Shown: positions 998 to 14,200 of the stretch, piece after piece
Position numbering within the stretch: the stretch's first letter is position 1
How the letters are laid out: each line of letters begins with the position of its first letter
Made by a program: the position numbers and the translations under genes
Assembly: GCA_010206265.1 (NCBI GenBank)
Contig: VIQV01000008.1
Coordinates: 1-64,000, forward strand
From: Lachnospiraceae bacterium MD329
Lineage (GTDB): Bacteria; Bacillota; Clostridia; UBA1381
Reading direction: 5' to 3'
DNA: 64,000 nucleotides
Notes under the pieces: generated by a model
What the model was told of the DNA's origin: nothing
What the model saw: the letters and a program-made list of their open reading frames with translations, nothing else
Databases searched by the model: none

Positions 998-1026
998 TTG
1001 ACATTGTCCCCCACCGAATATATAAT
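998..1026 (+). promoter_or_regulatory. Sigma-A type promoter of the two-component operon
   Basis: TTGACA (998-1003), 17-base spacer, TATAAT (1021-1026): full consensus. It sits about 45 bases before the response regulator start. Confidence 0.85.
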
Positions 1027-1070
1027 ATATTATGAAACAAACTATATTCGTTAATTCAAAGGAGCAGCAA

Positions 1071-1754
1071 ATGAAAATACTTATAATTGAAGATGATTTA
1101 AGTTTAGCAAGCGGATTATCATTCGCAATAAAAAAACAAGGCTATGACTTAGACCTTGCGCGCACGAGTGAAGAGGCATATAAAATATGGTCAGACGGCA
1201 AATACGACCTGATAATTTTAGACGTATCCCTCCCCGACGGTTCAGGCTTTGACATATGCCGTACAATCCGCCGCACTTCAAAAGTACCTATTATTTTTCT
1301 TACTGCCGCCGATGAAGAAACCAACATTATTATGGGACTGGACATAGGCGGCGACGACTACATTACAAAACCATTTAAATTAGCAGTTCTTATGTCAAGA
1401 ATAAATGCCCTTCTGCGCCGCAGCAACAATTTTAATCAGTCTGACTCAGAACTGTGTTCAAACGGCATAACCATACAGCTTTTAAAAAGTAAAGTATATA
1501 AAAACGGAGAACAAATTGACCTGACAGCAAGCGAATATAAATTACTATGTCTGTTTATGGAAAATCCTGATATTGTACTTTCAGCAGAACAGATTCTAAG
1601 CAAATTATGGGACTGCAACGAAAACTATGTAGACAGCAACACTCTTACAGTATATATACGCCGTCTGCGCGCTAAAATTGAAAATAATCCGAGTGACCCG
1701 AAAATGATACTTACAGTACGCCGTATGGGCTACAAATGGAATACCGAGATATAA
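1071..1754 (+). CDS. OmpR/PhoB-family response regulator
   Basis: DNA-binding response regulator of 227 residues. The receiver domain (about 1-115) has the acidic pocket Glu7/Asp8/Asp9, phospho-acceptor Asp51 in LIILDVSLPDG, the Thr in FLTAADE, and Lys100 in YITKPF. The C-terminal winged helix (about 130-225) has the YKLLCLFMENP and VYIRRLRAKIE blocks typical of the family. The ATG at 1071 is chosen because AAAGGAG lies six bases upstream; an in-frame ATG at 1032 has no ribosome site. The gene is followed after 14 bases by a histidine kinase and then an ABC exporter, an arrangement seen in VanR/BceR-like envelope-stress systems. The inducer cannot be read from the sequence. Confidence 0.93.
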   Translation: MKILIIEDDLSLASGLSFAIKKQGYDLDLARTSEEAYKIWSDGKYDLIILDVSLPDGSGFDICRTIRRTSKVPIIFLTAADEETNIIMGLDIGGDDYITKPFKLAVLMSRINALLRRSNNFNQSDSELCSNGITIQLLKSKVYKNGEQIDLTASEYKLLCLFMENPDIVLSAEQILSKLWDCNENYVDSNTLTVYIRRLRAKIENNPSDPKMILTVRRMGYKWNTEI

Positions 1755-1768
1755 AAGGTGATTTTACT

Positions 1769-2812
1769 ATGAAAATATTTACCGATAAAAAAATTAAATT
1801 TCTGTTTTTAAGAATGACGTTATACACATTGATATTTGTACTGTTTTCCGTTTTTCTTATTATTTTCAAAATCAACAATGCCGAGGTATATATTACCGTT
1901 TCTTCTATTCTTGCGTCTTTGGCTGTTTTTGCAGACTGCGGTATATACTTTAAAAACCAAAACCGAATTATCGAAAACGCAGAAATGCAGATTATAAAAT
2001 ATATTTCAGGCGACGAAACTGCACGTATTGAATGTGACAATGAGGGTGAACTATACAAACTGTTTCATAAAATAAACTCACTTGCCTCAACACTCAATGC
2101 ACATGCTGAAAACGAGCTTAAATCAAAAGAATTTTTAAAGAATACAATATCAGATATTTCACATCAGTTAAAAACCCCTCTTACCGCCCTGAATATATAC
2201 AACGGCATTATGCAGAGCGAAACAAAAAACCTGCCTGAAATTCAGGAATTTACGACCCTTACCGAACAAGAGCTTGACAGGATAGAAACACTTGTACAAA
2301 ATCTTTTAAAAATCACCAAGCTTGACGCAGGCACAATCATTATTGATAATTCTGAGGAAAACCTGTCTGATATAATTCAAACAATAAAAAATCACTTTTC
2401 GTTCCGCGCCGAACAAGAAGGAAAGCAAATACTCCTTTCGGGCAATGATTCAATAAATCTGTTATGCGACCGTTTATGGCTTACAGAGGCTCTTGACAAT
2501 ATCGTCAAAAATGCTCTTGACCATACTGCAAAAGGCGGTATCATTCAAATCGAATACAGACAATTTACGTCGGTTGTACAAATTATAATAAAAGATAACG
2601 GAAGCGGTATTCACCCTGAAGACCTGCACCATATTTTCAAAAGATTTTACCGCAGCCGATTTTCTAAAGACACTCAGGGCATAGGTCTTGGACTGCCTCT
2701 TGCCAAAGCGATTATCGAAGCACATAAAGGCACAATAGAAGTAGACAGTGAACCGAACAAAGGAACTGTATTTACCATAAATTTTATAACCTCAAATCCT
2801 ACAAAATTGTAG
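1769..2812 (+). CDS. Sensor histidine kinase with short membrane sensor
   Basis: Membrane histidine kinase of 347 residues, partner of the regulator upstream. Two transmembrane helices (about 10-33 and 39-61) are separated by only a handful of residues, so there is almost no extracellular sensor; such kinases often sense in the membrane or through a partner transporter. HisKA domain with His132 in ISDISHQLKTPLTAL; HATPase with N box (NIVKNALDHT), G1 box (DNGSGI), F box and G2 box (GIGLGLPLAK). Start ATG at 1769 follows AAAAGGTG at eight bases. The stop codon lies inside a 22-base near-palindrome that may serve the downstream transporter promoter. Confidence 0.92.
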   Translation: MKIFTDKKIKFLFLRMTLYTLIFVLFSVFLIIFKINNAEVYITVSSILASLAVFADCGIYFKNQNRIIENAEMQIIKYISGDETARIECDNEGELYKLFHKINSLASTLNAHAENELKSKEFLKNTISDISHQLKTPLTALNIYNGIMQSETKNLPEIQEFTTLTEQELDRIETLVQNLLKITKLDAGTIIIDNSEENLSDIIQTIKNHFSFRAEQEGKQILLSGNDSINLLCDRLWLTEALDNIVKNALDHTAKGGIIQIEYRQFTSVVQIIIKDNGSGIHPEDLHHIFKRFYRSRFSKDTQGIGLGLPLAKAIIEAHKGTIEVDSEPNKGTVFTINFITSNPTKL

Positions 2813-2860
2813 GATTAAATTCATATTACTGTAGGATTTTTGCGGTATTATTGTAATACT
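2795..2860 (+). promoter_or_regulatory. Putative response-regulator operator and promoter of the ABC exporter
   Basis: An inverted repeat AATCCTACAA-AA-TTGTAGGATT (2795-2816) is followed by a second TGTAGGATT. The two TGTAGGATT copies start at 2808 and 2830, exactly 22 bases (two helical turns) apart, which is the usual geometry of OmpR-family direct-repeat boxes. A TAATAC -10-like hexamer (about 2855-2860) lies 16-17 bases after the second copy, which would overlap the -35 region. No good -35 hexamer is seen, as expected for an activated promoter. Confidence 0.6.
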
Positions 2861-2884
2861 AACATAGAAAGAGGTGTTTACAAT

Positions 2885-3580
2885 ATGAATTTATTAGAAG
2901 TTAAATCCATTTCAAAAATCTACGGCAGCGGTGAAACCGCTGTACACGCATTAAAAAATGTCAGCTTTTCAGTACCTAAGGGTGAGTTTGTCGCAGTTGT
3001 TGGAGAATCCGGTTCGGGAAAATCCACACTGCTTAATATGATAGGCGCTCTTGATACACCGTCAAGCGGTAAGGTACTTATTGACGGCAGAGATATATTT
3101 TCTATGAAAGACAGTAAACTTACTGTATTCCGCCGAAGAAATATAGGTTTCATATTTCAGGCTTTCAACCTAATTCCCGAATTAACTGTTGAACAGAATA
3201 TAATATTCCCTATACTTCTCGACTACCAAAAACCTGACAAAAAATATCTCGAAGAATTACTGACGGTTCTTAACCTGAAAGAACGCCGCGCCCACCTTCC
3301 GAGTCAGCTTTCGGGCGGACAGCAGCAAAGGGTTGCAATAGGACGCGCTCTTATCACACGCCCCTCCCTGATACTTGCGGACGAGCCGACGGGAAATCTT
3401 GACACGCAAAACAGCAGCGAAGTAATTGCACTGCTGAGAGAGGCGTCAAAAAAATTCGAACAAACGATTATAATGATTACACACAACCGCTCTATTGCAG
3501 CCTCCGCTGACCGCGTACTAAACGTAACCGACGGTGTTTTAACCGATTTGGGAGGTGTTGGCAATGAAAAGTTATCTTAG
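2885..3580 (+). CDS. ABC transporter ATP-binding protein (MacB/LolD/BceA type)
   Basis: ATPase subunit of 231 residues for the two FtsX-type permeases downstream. Walker [10 protein letters not shown] at about 40-48, Q-loop in [13 protein letters not shown], signature [15 protein letters not shown], Walker [13 protein letters not shown] and the switch His in IMITHNRS. The LolD/MacB subfamily is indicated by length, the FNLIPELT block and the permease type. The ATG at 2885 has AGAGGTG upstream with about nine bases spacing. The 3' end overlaps the first permease by 17 bases, implying translational coupling. Confidence 0.93.
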
Positions 3581-5882
3581 TCTTATTCCCCGTTCCGCGC
3601 GTGTGCATAAAAAGCAAAACCGCCTGACACTTATATGTATAGTTTTAGCGGTATTTCTTGTAACAGTGATTTTTTCCATCACTGACGTATGGTTTTCCTC
3701 CGAAAAAGAAAGCCTTATTAAACGCCACGGAAATTATCATATAATACTCAATGACGTATCTGCAAATACCGCCGAACTTATCGGTATGCAGGATAACATT
3801 TCCGCGTCTTCGTGGTACAGCGCTCTAAATTACAACTCAACAGAAGGTTACTTTATAAATGATACCACTGTTGTTTTAAACGGTGCGGAAAAATCTTATC
3901 TTGACGATATACGCCAATTCCCGACAGAGGGCGAATACCCCCAAAGTGACAGCGACGTAATGCTGAGCGTCAGCGCAAAGGAACTTAATATAAATATCGG
4001 CGGAAATATAACGATAGAGACTCCCGCAGGAGATTTTGTATATACTGTATCCGGCTTTTGCGAAGACACCCTTGAAACACAGGACAGACACGGCATTATT
4101 TACGCATATATGAATATGACGGCATTGGATAGCTTGTGTACTGCTAATAATACGGACTATAAGCCTCAATATTATATTCAGTTTACCGAAAAAACAAAAA
4201 TAAATCAGGCGGTATCAGATATAAAATCGCAGTACAATCTAACGGACAGCAATATCAATGAAAATATGTTTGTTCTCGGATTGTCGGGACAAAGCACAAA
4301 ACAGCAAATGACAAGTCTTTATCCGCTTGCCGCTGCAATGTTTATACTGATTCTGATTGCAGGTGTACTGATGATTTCAAGCTGTATGAACAGTAATGTT
4401 GCCCAGCGAACGCAGTTTTTTGGAATGTTAAGATGTATAGGTGCAAGCAGAAAACAAATTATACGTTTTGTACGGCTGGAGGCGCTTAACTGGTGTAAAA
4501 CCGCTGTTCCGATAGGCTGCGGTTTTGGTGTTGCGGTAACGTGGGTTTTATGCAAAATTTTAAGATATCTGGTAGGCGGCGAATTTGCTGAATTTACATT
4601 TAAGTTTAGTATAATAGGTATAGTTTTGGGAATTGCAGTAGGAATTATAACCGTACTGCTTGCCGCTCATTCGCCTGCCAGACGCGCGGCAAATGTTTCG
4701 CCTATGTCAGCTGTTTCAGGTAGTTTGGCATATAAAAAAAATACTTCACAAGCCGCCAGCACACGTTTATTTAAGGTAGAAATCGCACTCGGAATAAATC
4801 ACGCGACATCTGCAAAAAAGAATCTTATACTTATTACGCTGTCGTTTGCGTTTACTATTATTCTATTTTTCAGCTTTTTTGCAGCGCTTGATTTTGCACG
4901 CGCACTTATGCCTACAGAGTCGGATTTCACAACGGATACGGCTGTCGTAAGCAAGAATTTTATGAACGATTTAGACAGCAATATGAAAACGGAAATGGAA
5001 CAGGTTTCTGGCGTGGATAAAGTATATTCTAATTCGTTCGCGCTTGAATTGCCCGCTGAAATTAACGGTACGGAAACAATCATTGATTTGATTTCATACG
5101 ATAACAATTTACTTGACTTGGGAAATTCAAACCTCATAAGCGGCGATATGTCAGGTGTTTACGGAAATTCATATTACGCGCTGACTGCGTTTAACGCCGA
5201 AAGCCGCCTTGACGTTGGCGATAAAATAAAAATCGGAGATGAAGAGCTTGAAATTGCGGCGGTAAGCTCTCAGAGTATATGGGGAGGCTCACGTCCGACA
5301 GTATACTGCTCCGAGGAAACCTTTACACGTATTACGGGCGAGAAAAACTATGTACTTCTTAATACAAGCCTGAATAAAGATGCCACGGAGGAAACCGTAA
5401 ACGAGCTCCGCACTATTGCAGGCGACAATGAATTTACGGACAGGCGCGAGGAAAATAAACAGAACAATTCCTCCTTCTGGGTAGCCCGTATTGCTGCTTA
5501 CAGTTTTCTGGCAATTATATCTCTGATTACAATTTTCAATATTATGAACAGTGTTTCAATGAGCGTATCGGCAAGAATCAGACAGTATGGCGCAATGCGC
5601 GCAGTCGGAATGAGTGTAAGACAGCTTACGAAAATGATTACAGCCGAGGCTGTAACATATGCCGTATGCGGACTTACAGTCGGCATTGCGGCAGGACTTT
5701 ATATGCATAAGCTTATAATTACAAAACTTATAGTAGAACATTTCGGCGGAAATTGGACATTCCCTGTCACACCGCTTATAGTAATACTTGCAATAGTTGT
5801 TCTGTCTTGTATTGCCGCTGTTTATACGCCTTCAAAACGTATACGAAATATATCTGTCACTGACACCATTCATAATCAGTAG
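3564..5882 (+). CDS. ABC transporter permease with two FtsX domains (copy 1)
   Basis: Membrane subunit of 772 residues. Layout: N-terminal helix (about 20-42, [15 protein letters not shown]), extracytoplasmic domain, three-helix FtsX block around residues 250-375 ([20 protein letters not shown] and [18 protein letters not shown]), another helix, a second extracytoplasmic domain and a second FtsX block at the C-terminus ([37 protein letters not shown]). Such permeases usually act mechanically on envelope substrates or export peptides and antibiotics; the substrate is unknown. The ATG at 3564 is chosen over a GTG nine bases earlier because it aligns with the MKSYLSLIP start of copy 2 and has GGAGG in range. 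Confidence 0.88.
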
Positions 5883-5897
5883 GAGGTACCGTTTACA

Positions 5898-8255
5898 ATG
5901 AAAAGCTATTTAAGTCTTATTCCTATTTCAGCAAAGATTAAGAAAAAACAGAATAAAATGACAATCATCTGTATTATTCTTGCGGTATTTCTTGTTACGG
6001 CAATATTTTCTATGGCAGATATGGAACTTCGAAGCCAGAAAATACGAGCAATTTCCGATTACGGCAACTGGCATATAACACTAAAAAACATATCTGAAAA
6101 TGACGCGGAACAGATTTCAGCAAGAGATGACGTTAAGGTTTCTTCGTGGTACGCTTCTCTCAATTATCGTTTAAAGGACGATTACTATATCGGAACAAAA
6201 CGTACAGCGATATGCGGAATTGAAGAACCTGTTATAACAGATATTCTGTCGGACGGTATTACCGAAGGTAAATACCCTAAAAACAATAATGAAATAATGC
6301 TTACAGAAAACGCAAAAGACAGCCTGAATATAAATTTGGGTGACAGCGTTTCACTGAAAACTCCGAGAAGTGAAGAAATATTTACTGTTTCAGGTTTTAG
6401 CGCGTCCACCGCAATGACAAATAAAGCTGACGCCGTTGTCGCGCTTATGCCTCTTGATACCTACAGCCGTTTTTACAGCGAGGCAACAGAAACTGCGCTT
6501 GAAGATTCGGATAAAGTATATTATGTGCAGTTTAAAGAACGCTGTAATATTAAAAAAGCAATTGCACAAATACAGAAACAATACAGCTTAACTGACGAAC
6601 AAATCAGTAAGAATTCCGCACTTTTAGGCATTATGGGATTCAGTACCGATTCATATATGCTCGGCTTGTATTTGATGGCGGCAGTTTTATTCTTTCTGGT
6701 GCTGATTTCCGGAATACTTATGATTTCAAGCAGTATGAACAGTAACGTCGCGCAGAGAACAAAATTCTTCGGAATGTTACGCTGTACGGGCGCAAGTAAA
6801 AAACAAATTATACGTTTTGTACGGCTGGAGGCATTAAATTGGTGTAAAACAGCTATTCCAACAGGCGTACTTGGAGGTATTATAATAACGTGGATTCTAT
6901 GCTCTATCCTGAGATTTTTAGGCGGACGTTATTTCTCAGATATGCCTGTATTTGCAATAAGCGGCGGCGGAATTGCGGCAGGAATTTGCGTTGGTATTCT
7001 GACCGTACTTCTTGCGGCACAATCACCTGCAAAAAAGGCGGCTAAGGTTTCGCCTCTTACGGCAGTTTCCGGTAATGCGGTATCGTCAAATATCTCCCGC
7101 CGTTCCCTGACCGCAGGATTTATTAAAATAGATACCTCGCTCGGCATAAGCCACGCGGTAAAGAGCAGGAAAAATTTTATTCTTATGGTCGGTTCATTTG
7201 CGCTCAGCATTACTCTTTTTCTGGCTTTTTCATCATTTATAGCATTTATGAACCACGCAATTACACCGCTGAAACCCTACACCCCCGACCTCTCAATAGT
7301 ATGCGGTGACAACTCGTGTTCAATTGACCGTTCGCTTGCAGAAAAAATCAGTTCAATGAGCGGAGTAAAACGTGTCTACGGTAGGAGCTTTGCTTATGAC
7401 ATTCCTGCTGAATGTGACGGTAAACTTAAAACCGTAACGCTCATTTCATATGAAAGCAACCAGTTTAACTGGATTGACGAGGAAAACTGGTCGGAGGATA
7501 ATATCGGTCTTGAAAAGGCTGTAAAGGACACTGACGAGGGTTATGTCATAGCGGCATATCACCCTGAAATAGCAATAAACAAAGGCGATAAAATACAAAC
7601 AGGACTTGGAGTTCTTATGGTTACGGACGTTGTTTCGCAAATACCGTTTAACCGAAAAGACGGTGAAGAAATATTGGTCTGTTCAGAAGCATTGTTTAAA
7701 ACACTGACGGGTAATAATAACTATACCATTATCGATATTCAGCTTGAACGCGGCGTAACGGAAGAAGAGGTAAACGCGATACGCAGTCTGTCCGAAGGAT
7801 TTCTCTTTTCCGACCAACGTATAAGCAACAGGGAAACAAAAGGCGCATACTACTCCTTTGCTCTGTTCGTGTACGGATTCTTAGCGGTTATTGCTATGAT
7901 TGCGATATTTAATATTATGAACAGTATTTCAATGAGCGTATCCGCACATATCAGACAGTACGGCGCAATGCGCGCTATTGGTATGAGCATACGCCAGCTT
8001 ATAAAAATGATTACAGCCGAGGCAGTAACATACGCCGTCTGCGGTTCTGCTGTCGGGTGCATAATTGGTCTGCCGGTGCATTATTTACTATTTAACAATC
8101 TCGTAACCGCACGCTGGGGTGACACGTGGACAATACCTTCCTCATCGCTTACAATTATTATACTGCTTGTGGTTTTATCCTCAGTCGCGGCTGTATACGC
8201 TCCGTCAAAGCGTATACAAAATATGTCCGTTACAGATACAATTCACGCGCAGTAA
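5898..8255 (+). CDS. ABC transporter permease with two FtsX domains (copy 2)
   Basis: Paralogue of the preceding gene (785 residues) with the same layout and near-identical segments, such as MKSYLSLIP at the N-terminus, [28 protein letters not shown] in the middle and [14 protein letters not shown] near the end. The two extracytoplasmic domains are more divergent than the membrane parts. AGGAGGT lies upstream; the gap to copy 1 is 15 bases. The pair probably forms a heterodimer served by one ATPase. A tandem duplication with divergence of the outer domains suggests the two halves contact different parts of a substrate or partner. Confidence 0.88.
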   Translation: MKSYLSLIPISAKIKKKQNKMTIICIILAVFLVTAIFSMADMELRSQKIRAISDYGNWHITLKNISENDAEQISARDDVKVSSWYASLNYRLKDDYYIGTKRTAICGIEEPVITDILSDGITEGKYPKNNNEIMLTENAKDSLNINLGDSVSLKTPRSEEIFTVSGFSASTAMTNKADAVVALMPLDTYSRFYSEATETALEDSDKVYYVQFKERCNIKKAIAQIQKQYSLTDEQISKNSALLGIMGFSTDSYMLGLYLMAAVLFFLVLISGILMISSSMNSNVAQRTKFFGMLRCTGASKKQIIRFVRLEALNWCKTAIPTGVLGGIIITWILCSILRFLGGRYFSDMPVFAISGGGIAAGICVGILTVLLAAQSPAKKAAKVSPLTAVSGNAVSSNISRRSLTAGFIKIDTSLGISHAVKSRKNFILMVGSFALSITLFLAFSSFIAFMNHAITPLKPYTPDLSIVCGDNSCSIDRSLAEKISSMSGVKRVYGRSFAYDIPAECDGKLKTVTLISYESNQFNWIDEENWSEDNIGLEKAVKDTDEGYVIAAYHPEIAINKGDKIQTGLGVLMVTDVVSQIPFNRKDGEEILVCSEALFKTLTGNNNYTIIDIQLERGVTEEEVNAIRSLSEGFLFSDQRISNRETKGAYYSFALFVYGFLAVIAMIAIFNIMNSISMSVSAHIRQYGAMRAIGMSIRQLIKMITAEAVTYAVCGSAVGCIIGLPVHYLLFNNLVTARWGDTWTIPSSSLTIIILLVVLSSVAAVYAPSKRIQNMSVTDTIHAQ

Positions 8256-8260
8256 TAAAA

Positions 8261-8290
8261 AAACTCCGTCTATTCAGACGGAGTTTTTCA
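8261..8290. terminator. Bidirectional terminator between exporter operon and GTPase gene
   Basis: An 11-bp stem (8261-8271 with 8276-8286), loop ATTC, with T runs on both strands. It ends the plus-strand exporter operon and the minus-strand GTPase gene. The last codons and the stop of the GTPase gene lie within the hairpin. Confidence 0.88.
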
Positions 8291-10841
8291 ATATCTCCTT
8301 TATTGCCTTTTCCGCGTCCTGTATCTCCTTCCACAGTTCACCTGCGGACACTCTGACAGCACCGTTACCAAGAATAATAATCTGTTCAAGGCTGTCGGAA
8401 GTTGCCACACGTACACGATGTTTTTTACCCAGCTCGTGGGTTGTTTTTTCAATATACATATCAGCAGTTTCCGCCTCTTTGGTATATACGACATTTATAT
8501 TGTGAACCTTTTCCACACTTCCCGTATTGCCCTTAACCTTGTACGCGTCAAATACGAGTATCAGCTCACACTGACTGAACCCCTGATAATTACACAAAAT
8601 ATCAATAAGCCTGTCGCGCGCCGACTGCAATGACTGTTTTGCAAGCTCCTTTGTTTCGTCCCACGCAAAAATAATGTTATAGCCGTCTACAAGCAGATAT
8701 TCCGGACCTGCAGGAACAGGCTTTGCTTTTTTATATTTTTTTTCGACAGGCGCGGACTTTTTTACAGAATACGACGATGTTTTCCTCGTTACGGCACCAT
8801 AAGTACGTTCAAAAATCTGCATAAGCTCGTTATCGTCCGCAACTGCGTCAATATAACGCTTTGCACGCTGACGGATAACTTCCTCCCCGTCCTCGCTGTC
8901 GTCGTCAAAACATATACCCTCAACGTGCATATGGTCGTAAACCTCATTCCATTTTACCGTGAAACCTGCGCCGTGCGAACAAAATACCGAATCGGCAGGG
9001 TTTTCAAGGTCTGTATCAAAATCGTAGCCTGTTTCCGCAATAACCTCATCGGCGTTATGGCATATGTCGTAGCCGCTGAGAATACAGTTCAGCCTTCCGC
9101 GTCCGCGTGTGTACCCGATTACCTCCTTGCTGTAATCACGCATTGTCGATACAGGAGCATTACCTGAAATACGCGTCATTTCTCCAACTGTTTCAGGCGA
9201 ATTGAACTCACCGCCCATCTGACCTATATCGGTCATTGCACGTCCTACGCACTCGGTAGGAATTTCGAGATGAAATTCATAATACGGTTCAAGCAGTATA
9301 CTTTTCGCCATTTTTAAGCCGTGACGTACCGCGCGGTAAGTCGCCTGACGAAAGTCACCGCCCTCGGTATGTTTTTGATGTGCCCGTCCTGCGACAAGCG
9401 TAATCTTCATATCAGTTATAGGAGAACCCGTAAGCACGCCTATATGCTGTTTTTCCTTTAAATGTGTTAAAATTAATCTCTGCCAGTTACGGTCAAGCTC
9501 GTCCTGCGGACAGTCCGACACAAACTGCATACCGCTGCCGCGCTCCGCAGGTTCAAGCAGTAAATGTACCTCCGCATAATGTCTTAAAGGCTCGTAATGT
9601 CCCACTCCCTCGGCAGGAGTTGAAATAGTTTCTTTATATGCAATAGAACCGTGACTGAAAGTGACTTTAAATCCAAAACGCTCCTGTATAATACGTTCAA
9701 GCACCTCAAGCTGTACTTCACCCATTACCTGAGTATGAATTTCACGTAACTGTTCACTGTATATTATCTTCAACTGTGGGTCCTCTACTTCAAGCTGACG
9801 CAAAGACGCCAAAGCCGTTGTCACGTCAATTTCAGGCGGAAGGTCAATGCGGTATGTCAGAACGCTTTCAAGCACTGCCTCTTTTGCGTCGGGCATATTG
9901 CCTATTCCCTCGCCTGCGTATGTTTTTGTAAGTCCCGTTACAGCGCATACCACTCCTGCTTCCGCCTCATCAACCGCGGTAAACTTTGCGCCCGAATAAA
10001 TACGTATCTGATTTACTTTATCCGTCCATTCTGTTTTTTTATTGCCTGTAAGCTGTTCCTTTACTCTAAGCTTACCGCCTGTAATTTTCATATGCGTAAG
10101 ACGTGTACCGTCTGCGTCCTCGGATATTTTAAATACACGCGCGCCAAAGTTGTCATCATAAATAAGACGGCGCGTATAAAGATTAAGCCCATACAGAAAT
10201 TCTTTTACACCGTCCAGTTTCAGTGCCGAACCAAAAAAACAAGGAAATACATTACGTTTTGCAATCGCATTTCGTATATCCTCCGTTTTAACACTGCCGT
10301 CGGACAAGAATGAATTCATTATATTCTCGTCACACATTGCAAGCGCGTCAAGAAAATCCGCGTCCCCTCTGTCCGCGCCAAAATCTATACAGCCGTCGCA
10401 AAGACGGTATTTTAATTCCTCCATCACTCCGTTGCGGTCAACATTTAAATCGGTTTTATTCACAAAAATAAATGTCGGAACATTGTATCTCTCCAAAAGC
10501 CGCCATAATGTTTCGGTATGGTTCTGAACACCGTCTGTTCCGCTTATTACAAGTATAGCGTAATCAAGCACACTTAACGTACGTTCCGCCTCTGTTGAAA
10601 AATCAACGTGTCCCGGCGTGTCAAGCAAAGTAAACGAGGTGTCTTGATATTCAAATACAGCCTCTTTGGAAAAAATTGTAATACCTCTGTCACGCTCTAT
10701 CTCGTCAGTATCAAGAAACGCGTCACGGTGGTCAACCCTGCCGAGCCGCCTTATTGCTCCCGACGTGTATAAAAGTCCCTCCGACAATGTCGTTTTACCC
10801 GAATCGACGTGAGCGAGTATTCCTATTACAAGTCTGTTCAT
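8274..10841 (-). CDS. Tet(M)-like ribosomal GTPase fused to a Rae1/YacP-like NYN nuclease domain
   Basis: Protein of 855 residues. Residues 1 to about 650 are an EF-G-like GTPase of the ribosomal protection family: G1 AHVDSGKTT (10-18), G3 DTPGH (74-78), G4 NKTD (128-131), then domains II-V including a GHYEPLRHYAEVHL block typical of Tet(M)/Tet(W). Classical Tet proteins end near 640. Here a linker leads to a NYN/PIN-type domain (about 712-855) that resembles Rae1 (YacP), the A-site mRNA endonuclease of Bacillus: LLVDGYNII (Asp719), LVFDAYKVKG (Asp765), ETADMYIE (Asp794) and VATSDSLEQ (Asp816), all candidate metal ligands. Start ATG follows GGGAG. Not next to mobile DNA or a resistance leader, so housekeeping ribosome surveillance is as likely as drug resistance. 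Confidence 0.88.
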   Translation of the reverse strand: MNRLVIGILAHVDSGKTTLSEGLLYTSGAIRRLGRVDHRDAFLDTDEIERDRGITIFSKEAVFEYQDTSFTLLDTPGHVDFSTEAERTLSVLDYAILVISGTDGVQNHTETLWRLLERYNVPTFIFVNKTDLNVDRNGVMEELKYRLCDGCIDFGADRGDADFLDALAMCDENIMNSFLSDGSVKTEDIRNAIAKRNVFPCFFGSALKLDGVKEFLYGLNLYTRRLIYDDNFGARVFKISEDADGTRLTHMKITGGKLRVKEQLTGNKKTEWTDKVNQIRIYSGAKFTAVDEAEAGVVCAVTGLTKTYAGEGIGNMPDAKEAVLESVLTYRIDLPPEIDVTTALASLRQLEVEDPQLKIIYSEQLREIHTQVMGEVQLEVLERIIQERFGFKVTFSHGSIAYKETISTPAEGVGHYEPLRHYAEVHLLLEPAERGSGMQFVSDCPQDELDRNWQRLILTHLKEKQHIGVLTGSPITDMKITLVAGRAHQKHTEGGDFRQATYRAVRHGLKMAKSILLEPYYEFHLEIPTECVGRAMTDIGQMGGEFNSPETVGEMTRISGNAPVSTMRDYSKEVIGYTRGRGRLNCILSGYDICHNADEVIAETGYDFDTDLENPADSVFCSHGAGFTVKWNEVYDHMHVEGICFDDDSEDGEEVIRQRAKRYIDAVADDNELMQIFERTYGAVTRKTSSYSVKKSAPVEKKYKKAKPVPAGPEYLLVDGYNIIFAWDETKELAKQSLQSARDRLIDILCNYQGFSQCELILVFDAYKVKGNTGSVEKVHNINVVYTKEAETADMYIEKTTHELGKKHRVRVATSDSLEQIIILGNGAVRVSAGELWKEIQDAEKAIKEILKNSV

Positions 10842-10926
10842 ACATAACTCCCTTTAAAGTAGTGTTATTATTTTATCACATTTTTAATATTTTGTCCAAC
10901 CTCTGCATAGAAATTTGCGATAATTA

Positions 10927-10955
10927 TTGACAATCTGAAATTATTATACTATAAT
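10927..10955 (+). promoter_or_regulatory. Consensus promoter of the ileS T-box transcript
   Basis: TTGACA (10927-10932), 17-base spacer and TATAAT (10950-10955), a full consensus match. Transcription would start near 10962, just before the T-box stem I. Confidence 0.88.
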
Positions 10956-10964
10956 AAGAAAAAG

Positions 10965-11200
10965 AAAGGCAATGACGAAGACAGTACGTTTTGTTAAAAG
11001 CGCAAAGCGAGCTATGGGCGGTGAAAGCATAGCGGCAAGTAAACAAAACAGAATATCACTTCCGAGCTGCGCACCGAACGGATACAAGTAGGCTGCGACG
11101 GCACTCCTCCGTAAACAGGAACGCATATGATAGTATGACGGGTGGTATAGCGAAACAATTGTTTTCGTCTTGTTGTATTTCGACAAGACGATTTTTTTAT
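10965..11200 (+). promoter_or_regulatory. T-box leader of ileS (isoleucine specifier)
   Basis: RNA leader that senses uncharged tRNA-Ile. Visible parts are stem I, closed by GTTTTGTT with AACAAAAC, with the GCGAGC and GGCGGTGAAAGC distal elements; a specifier loop GAATATCAC with codon ATC at 11055-11057; and the T-box GGGTGGTATAGCG (about 11140-11152), whose TGGT pairs with the tRNA end. The terminator stem 11165-11173 with 11183-11191 is followed by seven T residues. The GACG before the T-box can pair with CGTC inside the terminator stem, giving the alternative antiterminator. The specifier agrees with the downstream gene. Confidence 0.92.
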
Positions 11201-11235: not shown

Positions 11236-14200
11236 ATGTACAAAAAGGTTTCAACAAATCTCAACTTTGTTGAGAGAGAAAAAGAAGTCGAGAAATTTTG
11301 GAACGACAATAACATTTTCCAAAAAAGTATTGATGAAAGAAGTGAAGGCGAGGTTTACACGTTCTATGACGGTCCTCCGACCGCAAACGGCAAACCGCAT
11401 ATCGGTCACGTTCTTACCCGTGTAATCAAGGATATGATTCCCCGTTACCGTACAATGAAGGGCTATAAGGTACTGAGAAAAGCCGGCTGGGATACTCACG
11501 GTCTGCCTGTTGAGCTTGAAGTTGAAAAAAAGCTTGGTCTGGACGGTAAAGAACAGATTGAGGAATACGGTCTGGAGCCTTTTATTGCGGAATGTAAGGA
11601 AAGCGTATGGAAATATAAAGGTATGTGGGAGGACTTCTCAGGTACCGTCGGTTTCTGGGCTGATATGGACGACCCGTATGTAACCTACCATAACGACTTT
11701 ATCGAATCCGAATGGTGGGCGTTAAAGCAGATATGGGAAAAAGGACTTCTTTACAAGGGACATAAAATAGTCCCCTACTGCCCGCGCTGCGGCACTCCCC
11801 TGTCTTCTCACGAGGTTGCTCAGGGCTACAAAGACGTTAAGGAACGCAGTGCCACCGCCAAATTTACCGTTAAAGGCGAGGACAACACATATTTCCTTGC
11901 GTGGACAACAACTCCGTGGACTTTGCCGTCAAACGTTGCGCTATGCGTGAACCCTGCTGAAACATATGTAAAAATCAAAGTAGGCGACGAGTTCTATATC
12001 TTAGCTGAGGCGCTTGTTGAAAAGAATATCGAGGACGAATATGAGGTAATTGAAAAATATGTCGGTACAGACCTTGAATACAAGGAATACACACCGCTTT
12101 TTGATTTTGCCAAACCTGATAAAAAATGTTACTATGTAACGTGCGACAACTATGTAACGCTTACTGACGGTACAGGTATCGTTCATATAGCTCCTGCGTT
12201 CGGTGAGGACGACGCGAACGTCGGCAGAAAATATGATTTACCATTTGTACAGCTTGTTGACGGTAAAGGTGAAATGACAGCTGAAACACCTTGGGCAGGT
12301 ACTTTCTGCAAGGACGCTGACAAGGAAGTATTTATTGACCTTGACAAGCGCGGACTTCTGTTTAACGCGCCGAAATTTGAGCATAGCTATCCGTTCTGCT
12401 GGAGATGTGATACACCGCTTATCTATTATGCGCGTGACACTTGGTTTATTAAGATGACCGAAGTTAAAGATGACCTTATTAAAAATAACAATACAATCAA
12501 CTGGATACCGAAAACCATAGGTGAAGGACGTTTCGGCGCGTGGCTTGAAAACGTTCAGGACTGGGGTATCAGCCGTAACCGTTACTGGGGTACTCCGCTT
12601 AATATCTGGGAATGTGAGTGCGGTCACAGACACGCAATCGGTTCAATAGAGGAACTAAAGTCAATGTCCCAGAACTGTCCCGACGATATTGAACTCCACC
12701 GTCCGTTTATCGACGCAGTAACGATTAAATGTCCCGAATGCGGCAAGGAAATGCACCGTGTTCCCGAAGTTATTGACTGTTGGTTTGATTCGGGCGCAAT
12801 GCCGTTTGCACAATGGCATTACCCGTTTGAAAATAAGGATATATTTGAGGAAAACTTCCCTGCTGACTTTATCAGTGAGGCGGTTGACCAGACGCGCGGC
12901 TGGTTCTATTCACTGCTTGCGGAATCAACACTTATATTTAATAAAGCGCCTTATAAGAACGTAATCGTACTCGGACACGTTCAGGACGAAAACGGTCAGA
13001 AGATGTCCAAGTCAAAAGGTAACGCCGTAGACCCGTTTGACGCTCTTCAGCAGCACGGCGCAGACGCAATACGCTGGTATTTCTATTCAAACAGCGCACC
13101 GTGGCTGCCTAACCGTTTCCACGACGGAGCTGTATCTGAGGGTCAGCGTAAATTTATGGGTACGCTCTGGAACACATACGCGTTCTTTGTACTATATGCC
13201 AACATAGATAACTTTGACGCTACAAAGTATACGCTTGAATATGATAAATTGTCCGTAATGGATAAATGGGTACTTTCTAAGCTTAATACACTTGTAAAGA
13301 CAGTTGACGAAAATCTTGCAAACTACAGAATTACCGAAACTGCCCGCGCGCTTGATAACTTTGTCGACGAACTTTCAAATTGGTATGTACGCCGTTCAAG
13401 AACGCGTTTCTGGGTTAAAGATATGCCTCAGGATAAGATTAACGCGTATATGACGCTTTACACTGCGCTTGTAACTCTGTGCAAGACGGCTGCGCCTATG
13501 ATTCCGTTTATGACTGAGGACATTTATCAGAATCTTGTAAGAAGTATTGATAAAAACGCACCTGAAAGTATTCACTTATGCGACTTCCCGAAATACGACG
13601 AGGCTCTTATCGACGAACAGCTTGAAAAGGATATGGAAGAGGTTCTTTCAATTGTCGTACTTGGACGCGCCTGCAGAAACACTGCAAATATCAAGAACCG
13701 TCAGCCGATAGGTAAAATGTATGTAAAAGCGCCGTCTGCGCTGACAGAATTTTATACTCAGATAATCGAAGAAGAGCTTAATGTAAAAACCGTGGTATTT
13801 ACTGACGACGTTTCCGACTTTACTTCATACAGCTTTAAACCTCAGTTAAAAACACTGGGCAGACGTTTCGGCAAGAATATCAACGCTGTAAGAGAAATCC
13901 TTGCAGGTCTTGACGGAAACAAGGCAATGGCTGAGCTTAGAGAAACAGGCTCACTGAAAATAACGGTTGACGGAAATGAAGAGGCTCTTTCAGAAGAAGA
14001 TTTGCTTATTGAATCGGCACAGGCAGACGGTTTTGAATCAGGCAGTGACTATGGAATTACTGTTGTTCTTGACACCAACCTTTCCGAAGAGCTTATTGAA
14101 GAAGGATTTGTACGTGAAATAATTTCAAAAATTCAGACAATGCGTAAGGATTCGGGCTTCGAGGTTATGGACCATATCAAGGTAAGCTGCGAAGGCAATT

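Follow-up and report, generated by a model that had tools for sequence, protein, structure and literature searches.

A fusion of an EF-G-like GTPase with a Rae1-type nuclease domain appears to have replaced free-standing Rae1 in many Clostridia

The window analysed here comprises 64,000 nucleotides (contig VIQV01000008.1 of assembly GCA_010206265.1, positions 1 to 64,000) of Lachnospiraceae bacterium MD329, a member of the class Clostridia. It contains a gene (8274..10841, stop codon included) in which an EF-G-like GTPase is fused to a nuclease domain of the YacP/Rae1 type. This gene and all of its parts described below are on the minus strand. The open reading frame (ORF) has an ATG start and encodes 855 residues. 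A likely ribosome-binding site, AAAGGGAG (10848..10855), is found 6 bases ahead of the start codon. The protein consists of a GTPase part (residues 1–640), a linker (641–713) and an NYN domain (714–855). This confirms the fusion noted in the original prediction, which had been made from the sequence of the window alone.

The G domain (residues 4–219, 10185..10832) carries the motifs AHVDSGKTT, RGIT, DTPGHVDF and NKTD and was assigned by alignment and by a match to Pfam GTP_EFTU (1.2e-47). Pfam also identifies EF-G domain IV (EFG_IV, residues 398–513, 9303..9650, 3e-19) and domain V (EFG_C, residues 516–596, 9054..9296, 1.2e-18), and domains II and III give weak matches under the cut-offs. According to the alignment, the tip loop of domain IV comprises residues 485–498, GRAHQKHTEGGDFR (9348..9389), with an EF-G-type His488 and Lys490. 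With intact G1–G5 motifs, the catalytic His, EF-G-like domains and a structural match over residues 1–610 in a fold comparison, the protein belongs to the EF2 family. The rows of the fold comparison span residues 1–641, and the assignment of the NYN fold is based on sequence and a predicted model.

Domain V is followed by a C-terminal extension (residues 597–640, 8922..9053), which the alignment shows to be common to a sister family of GTPases. In this part of the protein (8925–9062), C594, which directly precedes the extension, C621, W631 and H639 are kept in 49, 42, 47 and 44 of 49 fusions, respectively, and in 11, 11, 10 and 11 of 11 GTPase-only proteins. As judged from their conservation, these residues possibly form a metal site. 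The subsequent linker (8703..8921) is mostly predicted to be disordered, with values of the predicted local distance difference test (pLDDT) below 50 at residues 645–656, 661–670 and 679–708 of the predicted structure.

The nuclease domain (8277..8702) was assigned by Pfam, alignment and model. Residues 716–852 match the NYN_YacP profile with 172.5 bits (9.7e-51, cut-off 24.6), so that the assignment of the C-terminal part to YacP/Rae1 holds. Residues D719, N722, D765, D794 and D816 correspond to D7, N10, D53, D81 and D104 of Rae1/YacP from B. subtilis (PDB 5MQ8 and 5MQ9; the four Asp positions were aligned with 5mq8). All five are invariant in 22 diverse fusions and also in 59 fused and 21 free-standing NYN domains. 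The four Asp positions had thus been given correctly. In the model they are found where strands end or shortly beyond, or where a helix begins, within a well-folded domain, as expected of a PIN-like active site; a clustering of these residues is partly supported by these secondary-structure positions. Two further fused domains (L114 and L121) escaped the motif script and keep the Asp motifs by eye. The free-standing domains were extracted from 21 of 24 loci (L066, L077 and L085 were missed by the script).

Unlike the fusion, Rae1 has no GTPase and ends with FEKWRRG (F-E-K-W164-R165-R166-G in B. subtilis), a segment that is missing from the fusion; the window protein terminates before the counterpart of FEKWRR. 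R166 is the final R of WRR, and R166P is among the B. subtilis suppressor mutations that, according to passages of PMC6613710, were read as loss of function. The entry 5MQ9 differs from 5MQ8 by the substitution W164L. Of 21 free-standing YacP proteins 16 have the WRR motif, as against none of the 59 fused domains. For a looser motif (E, any residue, hydrophobic, R, R/K) these numbers are 19/21 and 1/59. We infer from these sequences that the WRR segment may help Rae1 to bind ribosomes, a role that the GTPase may have assumed in the fusion.

Both enzymes of the fusion look intact. Residues D13, K16, T55, D74, H78, K129 and D131 of the GTPase are kept in all 49 aligned fusions and T17 in 48 of them, and the Asp residues of the NYN domain are kept in all 59 fused domains compared. 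The ratio of nonsynonymous to synonymous differences (pN/pS) among the window protein and 12 relatives (78 pairs, many of them near saturation at synonymous sites) amounts to 0.246 in the GTPase and 0.199 in the NYN domain, compared with 0.477 in the linker. The low values suggest that the GTPase and the nuclease are both kept by selection.

The GTPase motifs had been described as being of the Tet(M) type. They are indeed present, but they are general to the EF-G/EF2 family, and the identity of the window protein to Tet(M)-like proteins is 28–32%. Like Tet(M) and Tet(O) (PDB 3J9Y, 3J25 and 4V6V), the GTPase part is an EF-G-like multi-domain GTPase with about 30% identity to them. It differs from them by the tip of domain IV, the C-terminal extension, its position in a separate clade and the added nuclease. 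The NCBIfam profile tet_protect has a cut-off of 775 bits. The window protein scores 405.1 bits and two GTPase-only relatives score 430 and 436 bits, whereas the Tet controls L130 and L133 reach 876.4 and 852.7 bits. The protein does not pass for EF-G either (281.2 bits for TIGR00484 with a cut-off of 659.4 bits), and the genome of the window holds a separate EF-G-like gene. At the tip of domain IV, the sequence YYSPVST of Tet(M) contrasts with AHxKHTE in the fusions (AHQKHTE in the window). The position of Pro509 in Tet(M) is occupied by Lys in 43 of 49 fusions, by Ser in 3 and by Val, Gln and Thr in one each, and in none by Pro. His488 at the tip matches the His of the EF-G of this genome.

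Profile score, tip loop and position in the tree exclude a canonical Tet(M)-like protein, in agreement with the original prediction, which suggested a rescue factor rather than (or besides) a resistance protein. A different proposal is in print. According to passages of Atkinson 2015 (PMC4342817), a YacP-like NYN domain is part of the Tet proteins of ten species of Clostridiales, and it is proposed there to test these proteins for an activity as rRNA RNases that might contribute to resistance. The reported architecture, a Tet-subfamily GTPase with a YacP-like NYN domain in one Clostridiales protein, is that of the window protein; the likeness is one of described architecture. There the proteins are Tet proteins, whereas the fusion described here is placed in a separate subfamily that appears to have replaced free-standing Rae1. 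That the fusion is a tetracycline-resistance protein whose RNase adds to the mechanism, in line with this proposal and with the automatic label of some records, is very improbable in view of the data on its GTPase. The best reading of the sequences, short of proof, is that it is not a resistance protein. Two of the 74 genomes of the class sample (see below) that have the fusion also contain Tet-like genes, two in G014 and one in G556 (29–32% identity to the window protein); one of the G014 copies passes the tet_protect cut-off.

The fusion recurs in other genomes at 46–80% identity to the window protein. The same fusion was found in dozens of genomes, and a chance or assembly join is thus ruled out. 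Named carriers among the matches listed are Lawsonibacter, Merdimonas, Pseudobutyrivibrio, Monoglobus pectinilyticus and Agathobacter rectalis, and in Monoglobus and Agathobacter fusions are also located on large plasmids. In two genomes of the same genus as the window (G009:C13:55758-58316 and G003:C9:53027-55605) a stop codon or frame break disrupts the fusion, possibly as a result of assembly errors. A phage or mobile gene was considered and rejected: the unverified 'Bacteriophage sp.' records L233 and L234 (MT835563 and MT835514), which carry the fusion, look bacterial-chromosomal by inspection of their ORFs.

Within the order of the window, 27 of 41 genomes including its own have a YacP match, each in a fusion, whether whole, broken or split between contigs, and free-standing YacP was found in none of the 41. 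The separate yacP gene that the original prediction suggested looking for was not found in this genome, the assembly of which is about 91% complete. Of 196 genomes drawn evenly from the class, 133 have a YacP match above the cut-off. These matches fall in ORFs of at least 600 residues (70 genomes), in ORFs of at most 220 residues (59) or in between (4). All 70 genomes with long ORFs also match the GTPase and the four intermediate cases are split fusions. The class sample thus contains 74 genomes with the fusion, as presumed for other Clostridia, 59 with free-standing YacP and none with both above the cut-off (Fisher's exact test, p = 5e-16). The GTPase-only sister is present in 11 of the 196 genomes (one of these, G565, matched over part of its length only), 6 of which have free-standing YacP and none the fusion (p = 0.005 for fusion versus GTPase-only). 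In a phylum sample of 398 genomes, each of the 28 with the fusion has exactly one YacP match (p = 4e-9), and 4 of the 6 genomes with the GTPase-only sister have free-standing YacP.

The fusion might merely couple the expression and raise the local concentration of two independent ribosome factors, with GTP hydrolysis having no control over cutting. The long, mostly disordered and less constrained linker would suit this arrangement, as would the 6 of 196 class genomes in which the GTPase-only gene coexists with a free-standing YacP gene. The nuclease half of the fusion, however, lacks the C-terminal segment that contains R166, a residue of importance in B. subtilis, which suggests that its binding depends on the GTPase partner. 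Mere coupling is regarded as quite unlikely.

The neighbourhood of the two kinds of genes differs as well. Free-standing yacP directly follows rlmB in 24 of 24 loci, which have the best E-values of the YacP matches in 219 genomes and hence lean to good matches. A first comparison of 30 loci included 6 fused loci, all without rlmB. Since the flanks of these six mostly held the fusion gene itself, 73 fused loci were searched (flanks mostly of 1.5 or 6 kb, the window being searched as a whole; two loci repeat others), and rlmB was found in none of them. In the genome of the window yacP is not beside rlmB, which is followed by ORFs of 89 and 455 residues. By inspection, ORFs about 2.3 kb past rlmB read as NusG and ribosomal protein L11. 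In B. subtilis, yacP sits between rlmB and this same nusG-rplK cluster. As a separate gene, yacP thus appears to have disappeared from its original site, and its domain persists within the fusion. Judged from these sequences, the fusion thus appears to have replaced free-standing Rae1.

No convincing operon partner of the fusion was found among 16 fused loci. The clusters common to 4–14 of these loci consist of ORFs antisense to the fusion gene, except for one (5 loci) that looks like a widespread ABC-ATPase family. Two clusters comprise three loci, one of them response-regulator-like, and the remaining clusters are pairs. In the window, the fusion is preceded on the plus strand by a stretch (1026–8255) that ends 18 bases from the convergent fusion gene. 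Its ORFs, named by inspection, resemble a sensor-transporter module: an apparent response regulator and histidine kinase are accompanied by an ABC ATPase-like ORF and by two related permease-like ORFs in tandem (775 and 785 residues). On the other side, also on the plus strand, a perfect consensus promoter (10927–10955, TTGACA-17-TATAAT) and a diverged T-box leader (10963–11175, 78.8 bits with an Rfam gathering score of 93, E 1.3e-17) are followed by a terminator-like hairpin (11165–11191) before an ORF at 11236 that reads as isoleucyl-tRNA synthetase. The place adjacent to ileS is occupied by a GTPase-only gene (L029) in G019, a genome of another genus of the same family. Among the loci compared (flanks mostly of 1.5 or 6 kb), only G019 shares this site, and a conserved location beside ileS was rejected.

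In a tree of 71 GTPases the fusions are located on branches separate from the Tet clade. All 49 fusions included lie on one side of a branch with a support of 99 in the Shimodaira–Hasegawa-like approximate likelihood ratio test (SH-aLRT), and the fusions together with the adjoining GTPase-only family are set apart from the Tet(M)-like proteins (SH-aLRT 99). This tree left out L013, L018, L015 and L136 (broken or cut), L122 (duplicate of L114) and L027, L028 and L125, in which the script missed a motif. In the tree of NYN domains, a branch with SH-aLRT 97 separates 56 fusion halves from 21 free-standing YacP proteins; three near copies of the 59 fused domains were left out. Apparently, a single fusion event fits both trees.

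The adjoining GTPase-only family is found in Neobacillus, Intestinibacter and on plasmids of Ligilactobacillus salivarius. In the matches listed its members are 41–50% identical to the window protein over most of residues 1–641, and the aligned rows have the same tip loop and C-terminal extension. They differ from the fusion by having no nuclease domain. In the passages searched no tetracycline phenotype is given for strains with a GTPase-only gene. On plasmid pMP118 of Ligilactobacillus salivarius UCC118 (L219, 5402–7920) such a gene adjoins a gene for ribosomal protein S14 and a putative metal-homeostasis gene, a neighbourhood that possibly hints at metal-limited ribosomes.

GTPase-only ORFs of Bifidobacterium and Collinsella (L149, L151 and L153) are 52–57% identical to the window protein among the matches listed. 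In the copy of B. avesanii, several dozen additional residues are inserted into domain IV. These Actinobacterial copies nest inside the fusion clade, which suggests a transfer to Actinobacteria with loss of the nuclease. A topology with the fusions alone as one clade, excluding the Actinobacterial genes, was not rejected by the approximately unbiased test (p-AU 0.498). The tree used for this placement omitted 12 rows of the tree of 71 GTPases because of long branches or near copies and, among the loci newly added, L144, L148 and L157 onwards. For loss of the NYN domain by the GTPase-only genes of the family of the window itself, p-AU is 0.0455 (37 chosen rows).

These GTPase-only relatives bear on another explanation, namely that the GTPase resolves stalls alone in a rescue- or translocation-like manner and that the nuclease cuts rRNA, A-site tRNA or tmRNA (transfer-messenger RNA), the fusion being a factor of ribosome or tRNA quality control. 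PIN-like nucleases are able to cut many RNAs. GTPase-only sisters in Bacilli and Clostridia, the GTPase-only Actinobacterial copies and the EF-G-type His at the tip of domain IV would all agree with such a function. Rae1, on the other hand, is the nearest characterised nuclease and, according to passages of PMC12320835, attacks mRNA in the ribosomal A site. Furthermore, the fusion substitutes for Rae1 genome by genome. This explanation is considered unlikely.

We rather favour, with modest confidence, that the fusion is an endonuclease targeted to mRNA on ribosomes, and that its own EF-G-like GTPase has taken over the delivery of the Rae1 domain to them. That it binds ribosomes, hydrolyses GTP and has mRNA as its substrate is inferred by analogy with the relatives of the two halves. 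The A site is where EF-G and Tet(M) insert domain IV, and for Tet proteins this is also stated in passages of PMC4342817. In passages of PMC12320835 and PMC6613710, cleavage of the Rae1 type is described as a step that frees the A site for tmRNA. A tmRNA gene was found in the genome of the window. In the order of events conjectured here, the GTPase part would dock at the factor site of a paused ribosome as EF-G or Tet(M) does, thereby bringing domain IV to the decoding centre, and would probe or clear the A site. Upon GTP hydrolysis the GTPase part would withdraw, and the nuclease, tethered by the flexible linker of about 70 residues, might then cleave the mRNA at the A site thus freed or close to it; the A site as the place of cleavage is equally conjectural. 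The truncated message would be handed to tmRNA and exonucleases.

Several observations weigh against this proposal. A difficulty that the original prediction did not raise is that the A site is the presumed place of action of Rae1 as well as of a domain IV of the EF-G/Tet type; the two must alternate there, or else the nuclease acts elsewhere. Sequential use is the simplest scheme; the alternative is that the nuclease acts at the mRNA entry or on other RNA. Regarding the replacement of Rae1, the p values of Fisher's exact test are too optimistic because the mutual exclusion is partly inherited by shared ancestry, and two genomes with the fusion (G543 and G590) have a second partial YacP match that was left uncounted under the cut-off (21 bits). 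Five of the 11 GTPase-only genomes of the class sample and 2 of the 6 of the phylum sample are without any YacP, and free-standing YacP is no commoner in GTPase-only than in other unfused class genomes (p = 0.76). Separate GTPase and YacP genes are thus not obligate partners. Bifidobacterium and Collinsella keep the GTPase without the NYN domain, which implies that the GTPase has a use of its own. Two of the 21 free-standing YacP proteins are without even the loose C-terminal motif, and its loss may therefore precede the fusion. Finally, no experiments on the fusion were found in the literature searched.

It is a tentative, though possible, extension of the proposed endonuclease function that GTP hydrolysis on a paused ribosome sets the moment at which domain IV yields the A site to the tethered Rae1 domain, which then cuts the message, and that this enzyme replaced free-standing Rae1 in much of the Clostridia, with the GTPase taking over the ribosome anchor of Rae1. 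The rescue factor suggested by the original prediction is partly borne out, in that the replacement pattern points to the job of Rae1. Its statement that no functional description was known stands for the function, which is undescribed in the literature searched; the architecture was published in 2015 with a guess at rRNA cleavage and resistance (passages of PMC4342817). A later treatment of the fusion was not found in the literature searched, the main Rae1 papers being outside that search, and in that literature the replacement pattern is unreported.

The finding also concerns resistome surveys. NCBI calls one of the two plasmid-borne fusions, that of Agathobacter rectalis, a tetracycline-resistance protein and labels 17 of the 18 listed GTPase-only rows of Ligilactobacillus salivarius in the same way. 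The window fusion and two other GTPase-only relatives, however, score far under the curated cut-off. If the proposed function is right, the fusion offers a direct way to ask how Rae1 reaches ribosomes and whether GTP times the cut of the mRNA, and a large share of gut Clostridia would handle paused ribosomes by means of a factor for which the literature searched holds no experimental study.

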